This document shows, piece by piece, positions 280 through 10,763 of a stretch of DNA of 64,000 nt. The position numbers were made by a program, and so were the translations under genes. Below the pieces are notes generated by a model. That model searched no databases, had not been told where the DNA came from, and worked only from the letters and a program-made list of their open reading frames with translations. Within the stretch, counting starts at the first letter, position 1, and the number at the start of each line of letters is the position of its first letter. Where the stretch lies: the NCBI GenBank assembly GCA_002110465.1, contig NEED01000082.1, forward strand, positions 62,001-126,000. Reading direction: 5' to 3'. The stretch comes from an unicellular cyanobacterium SU2. Lineage in GTDB: Bacteria; Cyanobacteriota; Cyanobacteriia; Cyanobacteriales; Microcystaceae.

Positions 280-699
280 GTGGAAAGAGAAATTGTTACA
301 AGTAGAATAAGGTTGATGATAAAGTACATAGACCGTCTTCAAAAGTTTGAATCAATTACTTTACAAGACTATCTTGATAACTTCGATTATCAGTTAATTG
401 CTGAAAGACTAATTCAATTATTAGTAGAAGCAGCTTCAGATATTAATAGTTATCTGCTATTACAGTTACATAATATTACACCACCGACGTATTATGATTC
501 TTTTATTGAAGCAGGAAAACAAGGATTAATTAGTTTAGAACTTTCTCGAAAATTAGCACAATCAGCAGGAATGCGTAATCGTCTGGTTCATCAATATGAA
601 AAGATTGATAATACAATTGTTTATCAATCTTTTCCTAAAGCTTTAACTCAGTATCCCCTTTATATAAAAGAAATTACTGTTTACTTAGATTCTTTGTAA
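280..699 (+). CDS. hepT: HepT-like (DUF86/HEPN) RNase toxin
   Basis: This 139-residue, largely helical protein carries the HEPN RNase signature R-x4-H-x-Y at Arg99, His104 and Tyr106 (RNRLVHQY), which is the catalytic motif of HepT toxins and includes the tyrosine that MntA AMPylates. Length fits the family. The start is GTG at 280, 4 nt after the mntA stop, so the pair is translationally linked in the usual antitoxin-first order. Its stop lies only 5 nt before the cas10d ATG, which implies co-transcription with the CRISPR effector genes. Family assignment is firm; activity is inferred. Confidence 0.85.
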   Translation: MEREIVTSRIRLMIKYIDRLQKFESITLQDYLDNFDYQLIAERLIQLLVEAASDINSYLLLQLHNITPPTYYDSFIEAGKQGLISLELSRKLAQSAGMRNRLVHQYEKIDNTIVYQSFPKALTQYPLYIKEITVYLDSL

Positions 700-704
700 C
701 TATT

Positions 705-3700
705 ATGGCTAAAAACAAAAACCCAAACATTCAGCAACTAAGTTTATTTGATGAAGAAACAATGATGAATAATCAACCATTTGATGATAACTATGACGAT
801 GAAGATTACAATGAAGGTTATGATGATCTTCCTAATCCTACTCCAGATATAGAAGATGATAGTTCTCAAAAAGAATGGATACCTTTGAAGCTATTTAAAG
901 AGGCTATTATTAAACAAAATCCTCATGATCCAGTCATGATAGATTTTGCTGAATATGTATTATCTTCATTTTTAAAAGCAACCATTGGAGTGACAGCAAA
1001 AGGAGGTAAATGGATAGAAGAAAAATTAGCTGAAGGAAGCATTAAAAGCACAAGAGCATTAGAAGATCAATCCCTTAATACTCATATTCTTAATGGTTTA
1101 TTTGCAGCTAATTTCATTGAACAAGAATTAGAAAAACTCTATACAACTATTAAAGGATGTATTAAGGAATTAGATAGACGAATTGGCATAGCTGGATTTA
1201 TTTTACATGATTTCGAGAAATTTGATTATAATCGCTTTTCTGAAATGCCAGAAAAATATAAAAATGTTGAAAATATTCGTAAATTATCTAATCAAGAAGA
1301 TAAAAAAACATTAATACAAAAACATAGAAAAATTATTGATATAATTATTCGTCAACTTCACTTAGATTATTTTATTAATCCCAGTGATCCAGAAGCTTAT
1401 AAAGAATACATAGATGATTTTTTAACCATAGCTTATAATGCACAAACCCGTTGGGATACTAACTGGAACTTTTCAGAATATAATGGGTTGTCTCCTAAAT
1501 TACTTGGAATCAACCGAAAGAAATTAGTCTCATTAACAAGTTTAGCTTGTTTAGCAGATCGCCTATCTTCTATTATTAAACATCCTCAAGATGCTTTAAG
1601 TTCAAGTCTAGATAATATTTTAGGACAATTAAGTAATAACCAATTAAAATTAACCTATCATCGTATTGCTGAAAATAGAGGGGTTTTAACCAACATTCTT
1701 AATAATGCACTGATTGATGAATATACAGGAAAAGATTCAAATGACTGCGAATTCTATGAACCCTTTTGTCAATATTATAAACCAATTTTATATTTACCGA
1801 CAGGAGTTATTTATTTAACCCATAAAAATGCGCCACCTATTTCTTTAGATAATATTCCTAATAAAGTGATTCAAAAAATGAAATCCCTTTGTGCAGAAAA
1901 ATTACGGATTAGATATACTGGTTTTAACCGTGATGGAAAAGGAATAAAATATGCAGACTACTATAACCTTTTCTTTAATACTACTGAACTTATGGAAGTA
2001 GGATTAAATGCAACTTTCAATATTCTAAATGATAATAAAAAGCCTGTTTCTAAAGCTAGAAGTGAGACTTTACAGAAATTTCAACAACAAGACATTTTAT
2101 CTAAAACCTATAATTTTCAATTCGATGATAATCCTAATATTGATAGAATAGCAGAATTTTTTGATTTAATTAGTCGTAAAATTTGGGAGGTTAAGTTAAA
2201 TGAAATCAAGAATATTTGTAAACAAAATAAAGACTTACCTAAACTACCTGAACTAAGTTTAATCGATGAGGTTATTGAGTTTTGGAACTTATCTGACTAT
2301 TTACCTGCTATTCGAGAAATTCAACGAATTAATGAAACTCTCAAAGAGCATAAAATTAAAGGAAATACAGGAGGTTTACCTCTAGAATGGTATTATTTAG
2401 CTGCCAAATATTTAGAACATAATCAAGGAATTGAAGATGTTAAACCTATCTGTGAAAAATTATTAAGTCATCTAATTCAGAAAATTAATCCTATCTTAGA
2501 ACATTATGATATTCCTGATGGTTGGGATGATTTACGGGAGTGGGTAAAACGAGTGATTATGTTACCTAACCAAGAAACAGAAAATATCTCACCTGATAAG
2601 TTTTTAGACGAATTAAACCGTTATCAACTCGCAAAAAAATCAGGACGAGGAAAGCAATTAATTTGCTCAATTTCCCATTCTGCTTATACCGTAACCGAAC
2701 AAATGGAATCTTCTGTTTTATTTACCCCTCAAGTTTATACCAATAAACAAATGTTAGGGGGATCAAATGCGAAACGAAATATTGATAGTATTGCAGCAAT
2801 TGAAATGATGTTACGACAAATTTTAATGAGTCAAACTGGATCAAGTGGGAAAAACTTTGAAGAAAATAAATATCGTTATCTCTACTTATATCCTACCTAT
2901 TATTGTACTCCCGAAACGAATACTTTTTTACATCAAGCGTATGAAACAATCAGACAATCCCGTTTTGATACAGGGATTCGGAATCATTTTGTTAGCAAAC
3001 AACAAACCGCTAACTTAACTCTTGAAAATTATCAAAATTTAGATATTTTCCACCTTGAGGATACCACCAGAAAAAACAAAATCTTTAAACTTTCTTATCC
3101 CGAAGATCAACCTCTCACCTTTTATTTTATGGCATTACCGCCAGAGATAAAAGGAAAAGATAAAAAACCAACTGATACTGAGTCATGGATTATGCCAGCA
3201 TGGTTAGGGTTAGCATTTCCCATGATTTTAGATATCAAAGTTGTTGTATCTGAATCTCCTATTCCTCCTTTTAAAGAAGGTTCAGATTTTCCTGAAACAG
3301 TCTTTTTGGATAGCGCACCTCAAGCATTTAATGCACTCTTAAAAGAGGATAAATTTCGCTTAGATTATATCTTGGAAAATTATCAAGACCTAGAAAATAA
3401 GCAAAATTATTCTGCCCCTTTAAATTCTTTAACGGCTGCTTATACCATTCATCTTGATGTTAATTCTAAACAAGGAAAAGGAGGATATGATCCCAATTGG
3501 GGAAAGTTAACTGAACTTGCTAAAGACTTTGAAACCAGTTCTCTTTATGTCTTTTCTTATCTGAAAAAAATAGCTAGATCAAAAGATATTGAGTCACCAA
3601 GTATTAGCAAAATTAAGCTATATGCTTATGACTTTTACCCCTGTTTTGATCCCTATGTTCAATTTAATCCTAATAAGGAGGAATTTATCATGTTAAATGA

Positions 3701-4220
3701 AGAAGGTTTACCTTTAATAGAACCTAAAGAGTCCAAGTCACCTCTAAATCATCCTAAAGAGTTAACTATTCGTTATCGTGAATTTTATCGTGCTAAATCA
3801 GGTTATCCCATGAAAGCAAATGCCATTCTAAAACCAATTGATGAAGCTGCAAGTATTATTCTAAACGCAGATAATGCTATTTGTTCAGGAGACGCTTTAA
3901 TACATTTAGTTGCAGCAAGAATTTCTAAATTAATGGATCGAGTTCATTCTAGTACAGCAGAAGGACGCTGGATATTTTCAGGAAAAGAACGAGACAAAGA
4001 ACGAGAAAAAATTATAGAATTTTCTACCTATTTTGTTAAAGATGTTTTTCAGAATGCTTTTGGTGGCGATCGCGCACGTTTAGCCGGTCGTCAACTTAAT
4101 ATTATTCGTGATACCTGTGAGTTTCTTTATCGTTTAGAAGAGGATAAAGAGTATCAAAAACGTAAAGCTAATGGAGAAATCAAGACTTCTAAAAATTCTA
4201 ATCATTCAGAGGAAGAATAA
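705..4220 (+). CDS. cas10d: Type I-D CRISPR large subunit Cas10d (Csc3)
   Basis: This 1171-residue protein is the signature large subunit of type I-D effectors, which combines a Cas10-like fold with an N-terminal HD nuclease domain. An acidic, Asp-rich N-terminal tail (about residues 20-55) precedes a helical HD region with His127 and the His168-Asp169 pair (FILHDFEKFD). A GKQLICSISH stretch near residue 650 lies where the family normally has a Cys-x2-Cys zinc site; here only one Cys is evident. There is no good ribosome-binding site, and translation probably couples to hepT, 5 nt upstream. It should form the interference complex with Csc2, Csc1 and Cas6. Confidence 0.95.
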   Translation: MAKNKNPNIQQLSLFDEETMMNNQPFDDNYDDEDYNEGYDDLPNPTPDIEDDSSQKEWIPLKLFKEAIIKQNPHDPVMIDFAEYVLSSFLKATIGVTAKGGKWIEEKLAEGSIKSTRALEDQSLNTHILNGLFAANFIEQELEKLYTTIKGCIKELDRRIGIAGFILHDFEKFDYNRFSEMPEKYKNVENIRKLSNQEDKKTLIQKHRKIIDIIIRQLHLDYFINPSDPEAYKEYIDDFLTIAYNAQTRWDTNWNFSEYNGLSPKLLGINRKKLVSLTSLACLADRLSSIIKHPQDALSSSLDNILGQLSNNQLKLTYHRIAENRGVLTNILNNALIDEYTGKDSNDCEFYEPFCQYYKPILYLPTGVIYLTHKNAPPISLDNIPNKVIQKMKSLCAEKLRIRYTGFNRDGKGIKYADYYNLFFNTTELMEVGLNATFNILNDNKKPVSKARSETLQKFQQQDILSKTYNFQFDDNPNIDRIAEFFDLISRKIWEVKLNEIKNICKQNKDLPKLPELSLIDEVIEFWNLSDYLPAIREIQRINETLKEHKIKGNTGGLPLEWYYLAAKYLEHNQGIEDVKPICEKLLSHLIQKINPILEHYDIPDGWDDLREWVKRVIMLPNQETENISPDKFLDELNRYQLAKKSGRGKQLICSISHSAYTVTEQMESSVLFTPQVYTNKQMLGGSNAKRNIDSIAAIEMMLRQILMSQTGSSGKNFEENKYRYLYLYPTYYCTPETNTFLHQAYETIRQSRFDTGIRNHFVSKQQTANLTLENYQNLDIFHLEDTTRKNKIFKLSYPEDQPLTFYFMALPPEIKGKDKKPTDTESWIMPAWLGLAFPMILDIKVVVSESPIPPFKEGSDFPETVFLDSAPQAFNALLKEDKFRLDYILENYQDLENKQNYSAPLNSLTAAYTIHLDVNSKQGKGGYDPNWGKLTELAKDFETSSLYVFSYLKKIARSKDIESPSISKIKLYAYDFYPCFDPYVQFNPNKEEFIMLNEEGLPLIEPKESKSPLNHPKELTIRYREFYRAKSGYPMKANAILKPIDEAASIILNADNAICSGDALIHLVAARISKLMDRVHSSTAEGRWIFSGKERDKEREKIIEFSTYFVKDVFQNAFGGDRARLAGRQLNIIRDTCEFLYRLEEDKEYQKRKANGEIKTSKNSNHSEEE

Positions 4221-4222
4221 TC

Positions 4223-4828
4223 ATGAAAGTATTAGATCCCAATCAATCTTACACATTTAGTAAAATCTTCGATTTAAAAGTTGAAGTCGATGAATTAGTC
4301 AAAGACTTTGGCTATACTTTTTCTCGAAAATGCCTCAATTTACCTCAATATCAAGGGGAATTAAACCGACTCCAACAATTAGAAGAACGCATAACAGGTA
4401 TTTTACCAAATGTTCTTTTAAGTACCGAAATTGCCAGACGGGAAATTTTGATTGCACCTGTAATCACTGACCTTGTTTACTATACTAATGCTCAACTCAG
4501 AATTGAATATGCACTCAAGGTTTCTGAACAACTACAAGGGTCTTTAGATTACTTTCTTCATAATGATAATCATGTCATTGTTATTGAAGCAAAAAAGGGG
4601 GATCTAGACTATGGTTTTAATCAACTTGCTACCCAACTGATTGCTTTAGATAAATGGTTAGATACTGAAGAAATTAGCCTTTTAGGTGCAGTGACAACAG
4701 GTAATATTTGGCAATTTGGATGTTTAAACCGAGAGAAAAAACACATTGTTCAAGGTTTAGAAAATTATCGCGTTCCTGAAGATTTAGACTCCTTAATGCG
4801 GATTCTTGTTCAAGCTTTAACTGCTTAA
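4223..4828 (+). CDS. PD-(D/E)XK nuclease-like protein inside the I-D operon
   Basis: This is not a standard cas gene. The 201-residue protein starts 2 nt after the cas10d stop with a GAGG ribosome site at 4209-4212. Its second half has a PD-(D/E)XK-like pattern: Glu95 in a helix (RIEYALKV), Asp109 (GSLDYF), then a hydrophobic strand ending Glu122-Ala-Lys124 (VIVIEAKKG) and a following helix with Gln134. This is the classical restriction-nuclease core, seen also in Cas4 and RecB. The N-terminal 90 residues are unassigned. Position between cas10d and csc2 implies co-expression with the effector complex. The nuclease call comes from motif reading and is not proven. Confidence 0.7.
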   Translation: MKVLDPNQSYTFSKIFDLKVEVDELVKDFGYTFSRKCLNLPQYQGELNRLQQLEERITGILPNVLLSTEIARREILIAPVITDLVYYTNAQLRIEYALKVSEQLQGSLDYFLHNDNHVIVIEAKKGDLDYGFNQLATQLIALDKWLDTEEISLLGAVTTGNIWQFGCLNREKKHIVQGLENYRVPEDLDSLMRILVQALTA

Positions 4829-4890: not shown

Positions 4891-5961
4891 ATGTCATTAC
4901 TCAAAACAATTGATCCTAAATTCTTTCATTCTGACATTCCTTATAAACCGATGGGAAAATATGTTCACTTTCTCACCATACGAGTTACGGAATCTTATCC
5001 CTTATTTCAAACAGATGGAGAGTTAAATAAAGCAAAAGTTCGTGCTGGAATTCAAAATAAAACTCCCATCAGTCGTCTATCTATGTTCAAACGCAAACAA
5101 TCAACCCCAGAACGTTTAGTTGGTCGAGAATTATTACGAAACTATGGCTTTATAACAGCAGAAGAATGTGAATATAACGTTCGTTTTGCAATGAATAATC
5201 CTGATTGTATTATTTACGGTTTTGCTATTGGTGACTCTGGTTCAGAAAAATCAAAAGTTATCGTAGATACTGCTTATTCTATTACATCATTTGATAATTC
5301 TCATGAAACCTTTACTCTAAATGCACCTTATGAGAATGGAACAATGGCTTCAAAAGGAGAAATGAAAGAACTACCAAAAGGCAAGAATAAAGGTAGGCTA
5401 GATGGAGCAATTGGAACCACCACTTCTCGAATTAATCAGCAAGATCACATTCGTCCTCAAGTATTTTTTCCTAGTATTGTCACTTTAAAAGATCCTACTG
5501 AAGCTGGATTTTTATATGTATTTAATAATATATTGAGAACCCGTCATTATGGCGCACAAACAACCCGTACCGGAAGGGTGAGAAATCAATTATTAGGAGT
5601 TGTCTTTGCTGATGGAGAAACTGTTAGTAATTTACGTTGGACTCAAGCTATTTATGATCTAATTCCTGAAGACATTTTACAATCAATTGATCCTTTAGAG
5701 GAAGATTTAGTCATGGAAAAGGCAACTGAAGCGATTCAAACTTTAATGTCAGAGGAATTTATCGTTCATACTGATTTCATTGGGAACAATTTTCAAGCTC
5801 TATTAGCAGAAGTAAAAGCGTTAACAGGTAGTGAAGAAGGAATTAACTCTATTCTGAACCAAGCTAATGAAGAAGCTAAAGCTTATGCAGAGAAATATAT
5901 CAAAACAACAAAAGATCAAAAAAATGAAGACAGGAAAAGTAAAGCAGGTTCAAAAGCTTAA
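4891..5961 (+). CDS. csc2: Type I-D backbone protein Csc2 (Cas7d)
   Basis: The 356-residue protein begins MSLLKTIDPKFFHSDIPYKP and matches the Csc2/Cas7d family in length and in the opening segment. Csc2 subunits polymerise along the crRNA to form the effector backbone. The stretch around residues 210-235 (ILRTRHYGAQTTR) is typical of the RNA-binding core. A 62-nt gap separates it from the PD-(D/E)XK-like gene, and a hairpin and heptamer repeats follow it. The C-terminus is rich in Lys, Asp and Glu and probably flexible. Confidence 0.95.
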   Translation: MSLLKTIDPKFFHSDIPYKPMGKYVHFLTIRVTESYPLFQTDGELNKAKVRAGIQNKTPISRLSMFKRKQSTPERLVGRELLRNYGFITAEECEYNVRFAMNNPDCIIYGFAIGDSGSEKSKVIVDTAYSITSFDNSHETFTLNAPYENGTMASKGEMKELPKGKNKGRLDGAIGTTTSRINQQDHIRPQVFFPSIVTLKDPTEAGFLYVFNNILRTRHYGAQTTRTGRVRNQLLGVVFADGETVSNLRWTQAIYDLIPEDILQSIDPLEEDLVMEKATEAIQTLMSEEFIVHTDFIGNNFQALLAEVKALTGSEEGINSILNQANEEAKAYAEKYIKTTKDQKNEDRKSKAGSKA

Positions 5962-6030: not shown

Positions 6031-6798
6031 ATGAATGTTTATCGTTGTCAAATTAAACTCCATGATAGTCTCTATTTTGCCACTCGTGAAATAGGAAGAC
6101 TTTACGAAACTGAACCAATTTTACATAATTATGCTTTGTGTTATGCTCTGGGATTAGTTGATAATGAAATCTATGGAACAACTGTCTCAGAAGAAGACGC
6201 TTATCGTTATTTTTGTTCTTCCCAAATTCCTCAATATGAAGCACATTTAACTAAACTCAATGAGCAAGGAATTTATGTAACTCCTGCTCGTTCAATTCAT
6301 CACACAACAATCCTTAATACTTGGAAATATGCTAACAATGATTATCATGTAAAAATGGCAAAGACTCAAAAAAATATTCCGAGTTTTGGGCGTAATAAAG
6401 AAATTGCTCCAGAAAGTACATTTGAATGTTTTATTTTGTCCAAAGAATCTTTAAAAAAAGAAAAAACTAACAATAATTGGCCTTGGAAGATTCCTAAATT
6501 TATTCGTCTTGGTAAATGGATGAGTAAAGCTGAAGTAACTTTAATTGAATTAGTTGCCTCAAAAACAAAAATAGGTATCTTTACTTATCTTTATCCATTG
6601 AATCCTTTAGATGTCATGTTTACCAATCAAATAACGACTTATGATGTTATTAATATGCCTCCTGTTAGTTTAATTCGCAATATAAATATTCAAGGAGAAT
6701 ATTTTGAAATAATTGGCGAATATAATGATCAAAAAAATATAGAGAAATACGAAAAAAATTTAAAATTACCTGTCAAAATGCAATACTGTTTTCACTAA
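6031..6798 (+). CDS. csc1: Type I-D effector subunit Csc1 (Cas5d-like)
   Basis: The 255-residue protein is Csc1, the Cas5-like subunit that caps the 5' handle of the crRNA. I chose the ATG at 6031 (MNVYRCQIKLHDSLYFATRE), which matches the start expected for the family. The longer open frame from TTG at 5962 would translate the upstream hairpin and heptamer repeats into a non-conserved leader. The segment YETEPILHNYALCYALGL is characteristic. It sits between csc2 and cas6, the usual I-D order. Confidence 0.92.
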   Translation: MNVYRCQIKLHDSLYFATREIGRLYETEPILHNYALCYALGLVDNEIYGTTVSEEDAYRYFCSSQIPQYEAHLTKLNEQGIYVTPARSIHHTTILNTWKYANNDYHVKMAKTQKNIPSFGRNKEIAPESTFECFILSKESLKKEKTNNNWPWKIPKFIRLGKWMSKAEVTLIELVASKTKIGIFTYLYPLNPLDVMFTNQITTYDVINMPPVSLIRNINIQGEYFEIIGEYNDQKNIEKYEKNLKLPVKMQYCFH

Positions 6799-6838: not shown

Positions 6839-7663
6839 ATGCCTCACAGTCTAGTCATTAACCTTACCCCCGTTTCTACTATTTCACCCAATTACCTCAA
6901 CGGGCGACATATACACGCACTTTTCCTAACCTTAGTTAGTCATGTAGATCAACAATTAGGAAACAGTTTACATCATCCACAATCTGATAAAGCCTTTAGT
7001 CTTTCTCCTTTACAAATAACAAGAAAAAATGGTAATCATCACAATCTTAAATGGACTCACCATAAATCAATTGCTCCTGGTACTTCTTGTTGGTTTCGAG
7101 TTTCCTTGTTAGACGATACATTATTTAGTCAATTAACTCAATTATGGCTAAATCTTAATCCTAATCAACCTTGGCATTTGGGGTCAGCCGATTTACAGAT
7201 TACTAGCATTTTAGGCACTCCTCAATCTACACAACCTTGGGCTAATGCTTATCCTTATCAACAATTATATGAACAAGCTTCTTCAACAGAACGCACTTTT
7301 AAATTCATTTTTGCTACTCCTACCGCTTTTCGTCAAGGAAAATATGACACGCCTCTTCCTACTCCTGAATCAGTCTTTAAAAGTCTTTTAACCCGATGGA
7401 ATAAGTATAGTCCTATTCAAATTACAGATCTTTCAATAGATAGTATATTTCCTAGTTTTTTTGATATTAAAACTGAAATAGTCACTGACTCTCGTAGTAA
7501 GTTTATTGGTTGTGTTGGAAACGTTGAGTATCGACTATTAGGACAAGTTGACTCTTTACAAATCAAATACTTTAATGTCTTAGCTAATTATGCCCTTTAT
7601 TCTGGCATCGGACGGAAGACAACTATGGGGATGGGAATGACAAGAAGAGTGAATAGTGAATAG
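6839..7663 (+). CDS. cas6: CRISPR repeat endoribonuclease Cas6
   Basis: The 274-residue protein has the Cas6 layout: two ferredoxin-like halves and a C-terminal glycine-rich loop (GIGRKTTMGMGM) that binds the repeat RNA. The N-terminal half contains NGRHIHALFL, with His residues that may take part in catalysis. It should cleave the 37-nt repeat downstream to leave an 8-nt 5' handle ATTGAAAC. The last codons (V-N-S-E-stop) are made of heptamer repeat units, so the repeat tract has overwritten the native 3' end of the gene. Confidence 0.92.
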   Translation: MPHSLVINLTPVSTISPNYLNGRHIHALFLTLVSHVDQQLGNSLHHPQSDKAFSLSPLQITRKNGNHHNLKWTHHKSIAPGTSCWFRVSLLDDTLFSQLTQLWLNLNPNQPWHLGSADLQITSILGTPQSTQPWANAYPYQQLYEQASSTERTFKFIFATPTAFRQGKYDTPLPTPESVFKSLLTRWNKYSPIQITDLSIDSIFPSFFDIKTEIVTDSRSKFIGCVGNVEYRLLGQVDSLQIKYFNVLANYALYSGIGRKTTMGMGMTRRVNSE

Positions 7664-7729: not shown

Positions 7730-8080
7730 ATGGAGAGTTTAGTTTATCAAAAAGCTTATAAATTAGCAATTAGAATAGTTAATGCCTACAAATATCCAAT
7801 AGAAGAGAAAAAAGAATTTGTTTTATCTAAACAACTTTTAAGAAGTGGTACATCAATTGGAGCAAATATTGCTGAAGCAAACGGGGCAATATCAAAAGCA
7901 GATTTTAGAAACAAAATGTCTATTACTTATAAAGAATCTTTAGAAACTCAATATTGGCTTTCTCTTCTCAAAAATACAAACTACATTAATCAACAATCAT
8001 TTGACAGTATTAACCAAGATGTCATTGAAGTCAGTAAAATGCTTTGTTCAATCGTTAAAAATTCCAAGAATTCAACTTAA
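7730..8080 (+). CDS. Four-helix bundle (S23/IVS-type) protein inside the cas operon
   Basis: The 116-residue, all-helical protein matches the family of four-helix bundle proteins first found in 23S rRNA intervening sequences. Typical features are the N-terminal VYQKAYKLAI helix, LLRSGTSIGANIAEA and ETQYWLSLL. It has its own strong AGGAG site at 7719-7723, unlike its operon neighbours. It separates cas6 from cas4, which normally adjoin. Members are also known as accessory proteins of retroelements, but no reverse transcriptase is seen here. The molecular role is unknown. Confidence 0.85.
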   Translation: MESLVYQKAYKLAIRIVNAYKYPIEEKKEFVLSKQLLRSGTSIGANIAEANGAISKADFRNKMSITYKESLETQYWLSLLKNTNYINQQSFDSINQDVIEVSKMLCSIVKNSKNST

Positions 8081-8110: not shown

Positions 8111-8695
8111 ATGGATTATATTCCTATTGCTTCTCTTAATCATTACGCTTATTGTCCTCATCGTTGTTGGCTGATGTTTTGTGCTTCAGAATTTATTGAT
8201 AATCAATATACTATTGAAGGAACGACTTTACATGAACGAGTCCATACAAACAGTGAAGAAAATCGAGGTGAGACTTATCAAATTAGGGCAATTTGGCTAA
8301 AGTCTGAACATTATCAACTTATCGGTAAATCAGATTTAATTGAAGAAATTGATGGTCAACTTTATCCCATTGAATATAAACGAGGTAAAAAAGGAGAATG
8401 GGATAATGATGAATTACAAGTTTGCGCTCAAGCTCTTTGTTTAGAAGAAATGACAGGACAATCTATTAATACAGGATACATTTATTATGCTCATTCCCAT
8501 CAACGTCAAGAAGTCTCTATTTCTAACTCTTTACGACAACAAACGATTATGACTATTAATGCTATTCAAACGATGATGAAAACTGGAAATATGCCCACAG
8601 CTAATTATACAAAACGATGTAAAGGCTGTAGTCTTTACACTCATTGTTTACCCCAATCTGTCAAAAAAGTCAAGAGTTATCGAGAAGATAATTAA
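8111..8695 (+). CDS. cas4: CRISPR adaptation nuclease Cas4
   Basis: The 194-residue protein is Cas4, a RecB-like nuclease that trims prespacers and sets PAM and orientation. Visible residues are His41 (TTLHERVH), Asp75 (GKSDLIEE), Glu88-Tyr-Lys90 (YPIEYKRG) and Gln103. Iron-sulfur cluster cysteines are Cys15 or Cys19 at the N-terminus and Cys170, Cys173 and Cys179 at the C-terminus (CKGCSLYTHC). It lies directly upstream of cas1, with heptamer repeats on both sides. Confidence 0.96.
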   Translation: MDYIPIASLNHYAYCPHRCWLMFCASEFIDNQYTIEGTTLHERVHTNSEENRGETYQIRAIWLKSEHYQLIGKSDLIEEIDGQLYPIEYKRGKKGEWDNDELQVCAQALCLEEMTGQSINTGYIYYAHSHQRQEVSISNSLRQQTIMTINAIQTMMKTGNMPTANYTKRCKGCSLYTHCLPQSVKKVKSYREDN

Positions 8696-8737: not shown

Positions 8738-9742
8738 ATGGGTACTGCTTACATTACACAACAAGATGCTTTCATTGGCAAAACTGATGAACGTTTAGTT
8801 ATCAAAGCTGAGAAGAAAAAGCTGTTAGATATTCCTTTATTAAAAGTCGATGGGGTTGTTGTTTTAGGACGTGCAACCGTATCACCTGCTGTTATCAAGG
8901 AAATGTTAGAACGACATATTCCTCTGAGTTTTCTAACAGCTACAGGAAAGTATTTAGGACGACTGGAACCTGAAGTTACTAAAAACATCTTTGTTAGAAA
9001 AGCTCAATGGCAAGCTGCTGGTGAATCTGACCAAGCGATTCATTTAGTTCAAGGTTTTGTTAGGGGTAAACTCAAAAACTATCGTAATAGTTTAATGCGT
9101 CGTCAACGTAATCATGAATATCTAGACCTCAGTAAAAGTATTACTAAAATTGAACAGGCGATCGCTCCTATTAATGAAACCACTTCTATTGATTCATTAA
9201 GAGGATTAGAAGGGTCTGGAAGTGCTGCTTATTTTGGTAGTTTTGACAAGTTAATTACTAATAAAAATTTCCAATTTACTCATCGAAATCGTCGTCCTCC
9301 TACTGACCCTGTTAATGCTTTGCTCAGTTTAGGATATGCTTTACTCCGTCATGATATTCAAAGTGCTATTAATATTGTTGGATTTGATCCTTATTTGGGT
9401 TATTTGCACGTTGAACGTTATGGTCGTCCTTCTTTAGCTTTAGATTTGATGGAAGAATTTCGTCCTTTGATTGTTGATGCAGTTGTTCTTAATGCTATTA
9501 ATCATGAACTTCTTAAACCTGAAGATTTTGAACAAGAATCTTTAAGTAAAGCAGTTTCTCTAAAAAAAGAAAGTTTAAAATTTTTTTTGAAAGTTTATGA
9601 ACAAAAAAAACAATCAAAATTTAAACATCCTGTTTTCAAAAGACAATGTACTTATCAAGAATCTTTTGAATGGCAAGCTCGTCTAATGGCTAAATATCTT
9701 ATGGGTGAAACTGATAAATATCCCCCACTAATCCTTAAGTAG
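8738..9742 (+). CDS. cas1: CRISPR integrase Cas1
   Basis: The 334-residue protein is Cas1 of the I-B/I-D type. Metal-binding residues are in place: Glu158 (RGLEGSGSAAYF), His224 (YLHVERYGRPS) and Glu239 (LDLMEEFRP). The N-terminal beta domain (residues 1-75) and the helical catalytic domain are complete. With Cas2 it inserts new spacers at the leader end of the array about 600 nt downstream. Confidence 0.97.
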   Translation: MGTAYITQQDAFIGKTDERLVIKAEKKKLLDIPLLKVDGVVVLGRATVSPAVIKEMLERHIPLSFLTATGKYLGRLEPEVTKNIFVRKAQWQAAGESDQAIHLVQGFVRGKLKNYRNSLMRRQRNHEYLDLSKSITKIEQAIAPINETTSIDSLRGLEGSGSAAYFGSFDKLITNKNFQFTHRNRRPPTDPVNALLSLGYALLRHDIQSAINIVGFDPYLGYLHVERYGRPSLALDLMEEFRPLIVDAVVLNAINHELLKPEDFEQESLSKAVSLKKESLKFFLKVYEQKKQSKFKHPVFKRQCTYQESFEWQARLMAKYLMGETDKYPPLILK

Positions 9743-9837: not shown

Positions 9838-10110
9838 ATGTTTGTTTTAATTAGTTACGATATAAGTGACAATAAACGCCGTACTAAAATCCATAATATT
9901 CTGAAATCTTATGGTCAATGGGTACAATACAGTATCTTTGAATGTGATTTAACTGAAACTCAGTATGCTAAACTCCGACATCGGTTGAGTAAACTGATTC
10001 AAGGAGACACTGATAGTATTCGGTTTTACTTTCTTTGTCAGTGTTGTCAAGGTAAAATTGAACGTATTGGTGGAGAAATGCCAAGAGACAATACTGTTTT
10101 TGTCGTTTAG
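9838..10110 (+). CDS. cas2: CRISPR adaptation protein Cas2
   Basis: The 90-residue protein is Cas2, with the ferredoxin-like start MFVLISYDISDNKRR carrying Asp8 and the conserved WVQYSIFEC strand. It forms the central dimer of the Cas1-Cas2 integrase. It is the last cas gene before the leader and array. Confidence 0.96.
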   Translation: MFVLISYDISDNKRRTKIHNILKSYGQWVQYSIFECDLTETQYAKLRHRLSKLIQGDTDSIRFYFLCQCCQGKIERIGGEMPRDNTVFVV

Positions 10111-10343
10111 CATTTTTGCGCTATAGGGTAGGCGTAGAGATGACTAAATTTCTAAAAGCATCTCTAACCCTTATGCAACAAAGCTTAGAGGTTACTATGT
10201 TAATTCAACCCCAAGCGCACCAGTGACAGCAAGGGTTTCAGCGATTTTGTGTTATAATAAAGACGCTGCTAGTTCAGTTTTTGAGGCCTCAAGCGCAAAC
10301 GTACCTTGAAAACTTCATAATCTATGGCTTTCAGCGTACCGCT
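10111..10343 (+). promoter_or_regulatory. CRISPR leader
   Basis: The 233-nt segment between cas2 and the first repeat carries no convincing gene and precedes the perfect repeats, while the degenerate repeat is at the far end, so this is the leader side. Two short words recur in the same order: CAAGCGCA at 10212-10219 and 10290-10297, and TTTCAGCG at 10236-10243 and 10329-10336. They may be motifs for integrase, IHF-like or transcription factors. Confidence 0.75.
10250..10258 (+). promoter_or_regulatory. Candidate extended -10 promoter for the array
   Basis: TGT followed by TATAAT (10253-10258) forms a textbook extended -10 element. No good -35 is visible at 17 nt. Transcription from about 10265 would cross the rest of the leader into the first repeat. 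Confidence 0.45.
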
Positions 10344-10763
10344 GTTTCAACTATTAGTAATCCCTATGAGGGATTGAAACAAAAAATGAAATATTTTTTC
10401 GATACCGAATTTATTGATAATAAAGTTTCAACTATTAGTAATCCCTATGAGGGATTGAAACTTGAATGCTGACAAAACCTATTATCTTGATTTTACTAAC
10501 GTTTCAACTATTAGTAATCCCTATGAGGGATTGAAACATTATCTACCGATTGGAGAGATTTCATCATAGATTCCCAATGTTTCAACTATTAGTAATCCCT
10601 ATGAGGGATTGAAACATTATTATTCCTCTTGCAAGTATTCATTCTAAAGGTTTCAACTATTAGTAATCCCTATGAGGGATTGAAACATCTCTAAGGATTA
10701 AATCTTCCCATCTATCTTTCCATAGTGTTTCAACTATTAGTAATCCCTATGAGGGATTGAAAT
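10344..10763 (+). CRISPR. Type I-D CRISPR array: six 37-nt repeats, five spacers
   Basis: Repeats lie at 10344-10380, 10425-10461, 10501-10537, 10579-10615, 10650-10686 and 10727-10763. The first five are identical; the last ends in T instead of C, marking the distal end. Each repeat starts GTTTCAACTATTAGTA, has a 6-bp stem ATCCCT-ATG-AGGGAT, and ends TTGAAAC, which is complementary to its start. Spacers are 44, 39, 41, 34 and 40 nt. The expected crRNA 5' handle is ATTGAAAC. Spacer 1 (10381-10424) contains an ATG and an open frame for an exonuclease N-terminus (see findings). Confidence 0.98.

Follow-up and report, generated by a model that had tools for sequence, protein, structure and literature searches.

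The window analysed here, a stretch of 64,000 nucleotides, is part of a 5.24 Mb cyanobacterial assembly of 82 contigs (contig C82, 62001-126000). It holds a run of type I-D genes in the order cas10d, cas7d/csc2, cas5d/csc1, cas6d, cas4d, cas1 and cas2d, followed by a CRISPR array (Table 1). The effector genes characteristic of type I-D, encoding Cas10d, Csc1 and Csc2, are all recognized by PADLOC (Cas10_Id, Cas5d and Cas7d models), and the locus is an ordinary I-D array. A helicase-like ORF of 729 aa upstream of the window (L145 4968-7157) is probably cas3', judging by its sequence and place. The locus resembles the type I-D system of Synechocystis sp. PCC 6803 (reviewed in PMC10212523) in the order cas10d, csc2, csc1, cas6, cas4, cas1, cas2 and in the 37-nt repeat ending in GAAAC, the putative cas3' lying upstream here. 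It differs in the small size of the array, with five spacers, and in the presence of additional genes in the three intervals cas3'-cas10d, cas10d-csc2 and cas6-cas4. The first of these intervals contains what appears by eye to be a nucleotidyltransferase-like and HEPN-like ORF pair (window 280-699, L145:7830-8276), the second a 201-aa ORF, perhaps a nuclease (window 4223-4828), and the third an ORF that looks like a four-helix bundle of the 23S rRNA intervening-sequence type (window 7730-8080).

Table 1. Type I-D genes, leader, array and first spacer, with positions in the window.
Feature	Position	Strand	Remarks
cas10d (csc3), type I-D large subunit	705..4220	+	PADLOC Cas10_Id, E 0
cas7d (csc2)	4891..5961	+	PADLOC
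cas5d (csc1)	6034..6798	+	PADLOC
cas6d	6839..7663	+	PADLOC
cas4d	8111..8695	+	PADLOC
cas1	8738..9742	+	PADLOC Cas1c and Cas1d models
cas2d	9838..10110	+	PADLOC
Leader	10234..10343	+	last part similar to the leader of a Cyanothece sp. BG0011 array with identical repeats
CRISPR array	10344..10763	+	six 37-nt repeats GTTTCAACTATTAGTAATCCCTATGAGGGATTGAAAC; five spacers of 44, 39, 41, 34 and 40 nt
Spacer 1, 44 nt, leader-proximal	10381..10424	+	ATG at 10386; encodes MKYFFDTEFIDNK

The first repeat occupies 10344-10380 and the second starts at 10425, which fixes the limits of spacer 1 exactly. Two features orient the array: the 110 bases preceding repeat 1, read in repeat orientation, resemble those ahead of the Cyanothece sp. 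BG0011 array with identical repeats, and the final repeat is decayed, with a terminal T in place of C. On this evidence the leader lies at the left end, which makes spacer 1 the newest and gives its crRNA the sense of ATG AAA TAT, in agreement with the first-pass annotation, which had taken this spacer to be the most recent and its crRNA to run in the sense of the mRNA. No spacers common to the array and Cyanothece sp. BG0011 were found, and the other spacers of the array gave no match to phage sequences. Elsewhere in the genome there are two more arrays of 17 spacers each (C23:218846-220125 and C60:16868-18159), whose repeats are two mismatches away from those of the window. Some 11 kb away from the C60 array, at C60:5583, lies a single isolated repeat copy, and the array itself is followed by the apparent start of an IS630-type transposase, recognized from its sequence.

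Spacer 1 (AAAAAATGAAATATTTTTTCGATACCGAATTTATTGATAATAAA) consists of five A residues followed by ATG and 12 more sense codons, from AAA TAT TTT to GAT AAT AAA; this reading, made in the first pass, is confirmed by the repeat boundaries and the codons themselves. The encoded peptide carries motif I in the form M-[KR]-Y-F-x-D-T-E-F-I, in frame from the start codon. The same N-terminus, with the D and E of motif I, is found in RNase AS (Mycobacterium Rv2179c, PDB 4oke; 6s0m) and in the phage homologues of PF16473 and phrog_2259, whereas the source protein is known here from 13 residues alone. The spacer peptide has D at position 11, where E is usual, though D does occur in viral members; likewise, DN as residues 11 and 12 is less common, yet present in true viral members such as MKVFFDTEFIDNGKTIELISIG.

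The RNA-cutting enzyme whose start the spacer peptide matches is common in bacterial viruses: relatives are carried by 342 phage records and by 426 of the 485 candidate stretches retrieved from IMG/VR, of which the best 80 were kept. All ten of the IMG/VR contigs encoding MKYFFDTEFI have the peptide at the start of an RNase AS-like gene, and these proteins continue with T-I-D/E-L-I/V-S-I-G or a close variant. PF16473 was matched by seven of the ten proteins scanned, a set that includes the protein of Cellulophaga phage phi4:1 and two truncated frames. Among solved structures, those nearest to a viral member are Rv2179c/RNase AS (4oke) and 6s0m, the annotation 'RNase H' being a PHROG label. At the nucleotide level, the closest gene-start homologue is identical to the spacer at 36 of 44 positions.

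The search of phages by BLASTN proposed in the first-pass annotation led to the same genes. We compared the 44-mer, blind to frame, with 50,697 phage records (2.3 Gb of phage DNA), and the matches of lowest E-value (0.02) fall in the Cellulophaga phages phi4:1 and phi17:2, where 28 of 32 nt agree in register from the ATG of the RNase gene. The phi4:1 match begins at 107196, where the start of the annotated 'Rnase H' gene coincides with the ATG of the spacer. Weaker matches, also in the RNase gene and in the same register, occur in Bacillus phage Bobb and Streptomyces phage Faust. None of these is a protospacer: the codons of a conserved peptide are held in common, and the two Cellulophaga phages infect Bacteroidota. 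Together with the peptide comparisons below and the viral gene starts, the BLASTN matches support the earlier proposal that the spacer was taken from a gene for an RNase AS-like exonuclease, in its identity, frame, start-codon position and orientation.

Several viral contigs rich in HIP1, an octamer (GCGATCGC) that marks cyanobacterial DNA, carry an RNase AS-like gene next to genes for portal, scaffold, terminase or tail proteins. One of them (L108) has ten copies of the octamer in 3.5 kb, where about 0.02 are expected, and the gene lies between the portal and head scaffolding genes; another (L010) has 25 copies in 13.9 kb, with the gene downstream of a terminase and a sigma factor; a third (L115) has eight copies, with the gene beside tail genes. 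Judging from these contigs, the RNase AS-like gene very probably occurs in cyanophages, and no named cyanophages of the phage collection were seen among the RNase AS matches listed. Spacer 1 almost certainly derives from an unsequenced invader, and the invader was probably a virus. Our main reading, to which we assign a probability of about 0.88 on the sequence comparisons, is that spacer 1 is the memory of a virus, likeliest a cyanophage outside the collections searched, taken across the start of an RNase AS-like (PF16473/phrog_2259) gene.

The same gene might instead have resided on a plasmid or another non-viral element. Relatives are indeed carried by 43 plasmids, including pC052_F of Nostoc sp. 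C052, but the Nostoc copy, the single cyanobacterial case looked at, is without the motif (MNYFLATKNFISD), and the viral carriers counted above are far more numerous and closer to the spacer in their N-termini. A non-viral source is thus unlikely, and a phage is favoured over a plasmid, though not proved. The pC052_F gene itself (L146:2001-2549) is annotated as a 3'-5' exoribonuclease; given the replacement of motif I DTEF, its product is probably not catalytic.

A further alternative is that an AT-rich spacer spells the peptide by coincidence and that its protospacer lies in unrelated sequence. The query is short, HMM E-values reach just 0.005-0.1, and the collections searched returned no protospacer: there was no match with up to three mismatches in 386 genomes of the cyanobacterial phylum, and no protospacer came from exact sub-patterns in IMG/VR (20-mers of the middle and the 5' end), from the peptide pattern in GTDB genomes, from a degenerate 13-codon pattern or from the patterns DTEFIDNK and FFDTEFIDNK. 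Nor was there, in these collections, a near-perfect protospacer in unrelated sequence, the outcome that the first-pass annotation had named as fatal to its proposal. Matches to the 5'-end 20-mer lie in unrelated frames and reach 30 of 44 positions at best. A match of 34/44 in Tenacibaculum phage JQ falls between annotated genes; the frame into which it opens has 17 aa and no DTEF, and we attribute the match to chance.

The likelihood of such a coincidence can be estimated directly. We built a 13-column PSSM from the viral relatives kept from IMG/VR, using 36 distinct N-termini and excluding any with the decapeptide of the spacer itself. Spacer 1 scores 35.6, inside the range of family members (34.3-48.3), against null maxima of 10.2 among 60,000 Markov spacers and 5.3 among about 60,000 44-mers of the window, so that none of the roughly 120,000 nulls comes close. 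Per spacer, the analytic P amounts to 0.9-2.4e-12; it stays below 1e-6 after multiplication by the number of spacers (five) and of families (63,616, which takes in every family start of Pfam and PHROG). In hmmscan against PHROGs, phrog_2259 ('RNase H') is the sole family found, with an E-value of 0.1 when the repeat is included on one side and 0.0047 when residues derived from the repeats flank the frame on either side, the flanking residues contributing part of the score. As a control, we scanned the 28 open frames found in the 39 spacers of the three arrays of the genome: the spacer 1 frame alone matches a named family, phrog_2259, and the next best, which is the single other match, has an E-value of 0.22. 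The Pfam scan of the 25-aa frame yielded nothing, the query being so short. The match of the spacer peptide to the N-terminus of RNase AS/Rv2179c-like proteins (PF16473, phrog_2259) is far above chance, and with the best DNA matches sharing this register at the starts of RNase genes, a coincidence is very improbable.

Origin from the chromosome of the host itself, with self-targeting, is excluded for the 82-contig assembly, which has no PF16473 gene and no copy of the sequence other than the spacer: PF16473-like genes do occur in some other cyanobacteria (31 of 194 genomes at E <= 0.001), but most are weak matches or other DEDD exonucleases, and in the chromosomal proteins of cyanobacteria that come closest the sequence is MKIFFDTEFTGL or MQVFFDTEFTGL.

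With an invading virus as the source, the history and action of the spacer may be sketched as follows. The sampled site would lie across the start codon of the invader's gene for an RNase AS-like DEDD 3'-5' exonuclease, and the I-D Cas1-Cas2-Cas4 machinery would have inserted spacer 1 at the leader end. Cascade of type I-D reads a GTN motif that lies 5' of the protospacer, on the non-target strand, and brings in Cas3'; it can in addition cut single strands of nucleic acid to which the crRNA is complementary (PMC10212523). The predicted protospacer context is GTN-AAAAAATG. In the invader DNA, a crRNA in the sense of the mRNA would pair with the gene's template strand, which makes that strand the target and DNA interference possible: the complex of Cas10d, Cas7d and Cas5d would recruit Cas3', and the invader DNA would be degraded. 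The exonuclease mRNA cannot pair with such a crRNA, so the RNA cutting by Cascade would not act on the transcript.

This is routine CRISPR immunity, and the spacer is notable solely for a target gene that can be named from its sequence: 44 bases alone name a gene of an otherwise unseen invader. They also provide a probe for recognising the virus once it is sequenced, namely DTEFIDNK together with GTN upstream of AAAAAATG. The HIP1-rich and presumably cyanobacterial viral contigs show RNase AS-like genes in the neighbourhood of genes for head and packaging functions. A broader proposal, which we hold tentatively and consider somewhat less probable than its opposite, is that an unsampled phage lineage of Cyanothece-related unicellular cyanobacteria encodes a catalytic RNase AS-like exonuclease and was the recent source of the I-D spacer, the gene being a regular part of cyanophage genomes. 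If this is true, the role of the gene in cyanophages might be RNA turnover or nucleotide recycling, and perhaps counter-defence.

The 39 spacers of the genome gave no match of 78% or more to the retrieved viral loci. In Microcystis phage Ma-LMM01 (NC_008562.1 35836-35961; L157), annotated 56-bp repeat units contain GTTCCAATTAATCTTAAACCCTATTAGGGATTGAAAA, a sequence similar to a cyanobacterial CRISPR repeat and also matched by the phages MaMV-CH and MaMV-DL. A CRISPR array has been reported in Nostoc phage N1 (PMC4916379), and the repeats of this phage (KU234532.1 16775-17028) match the CRISPR repeats of the present genome.
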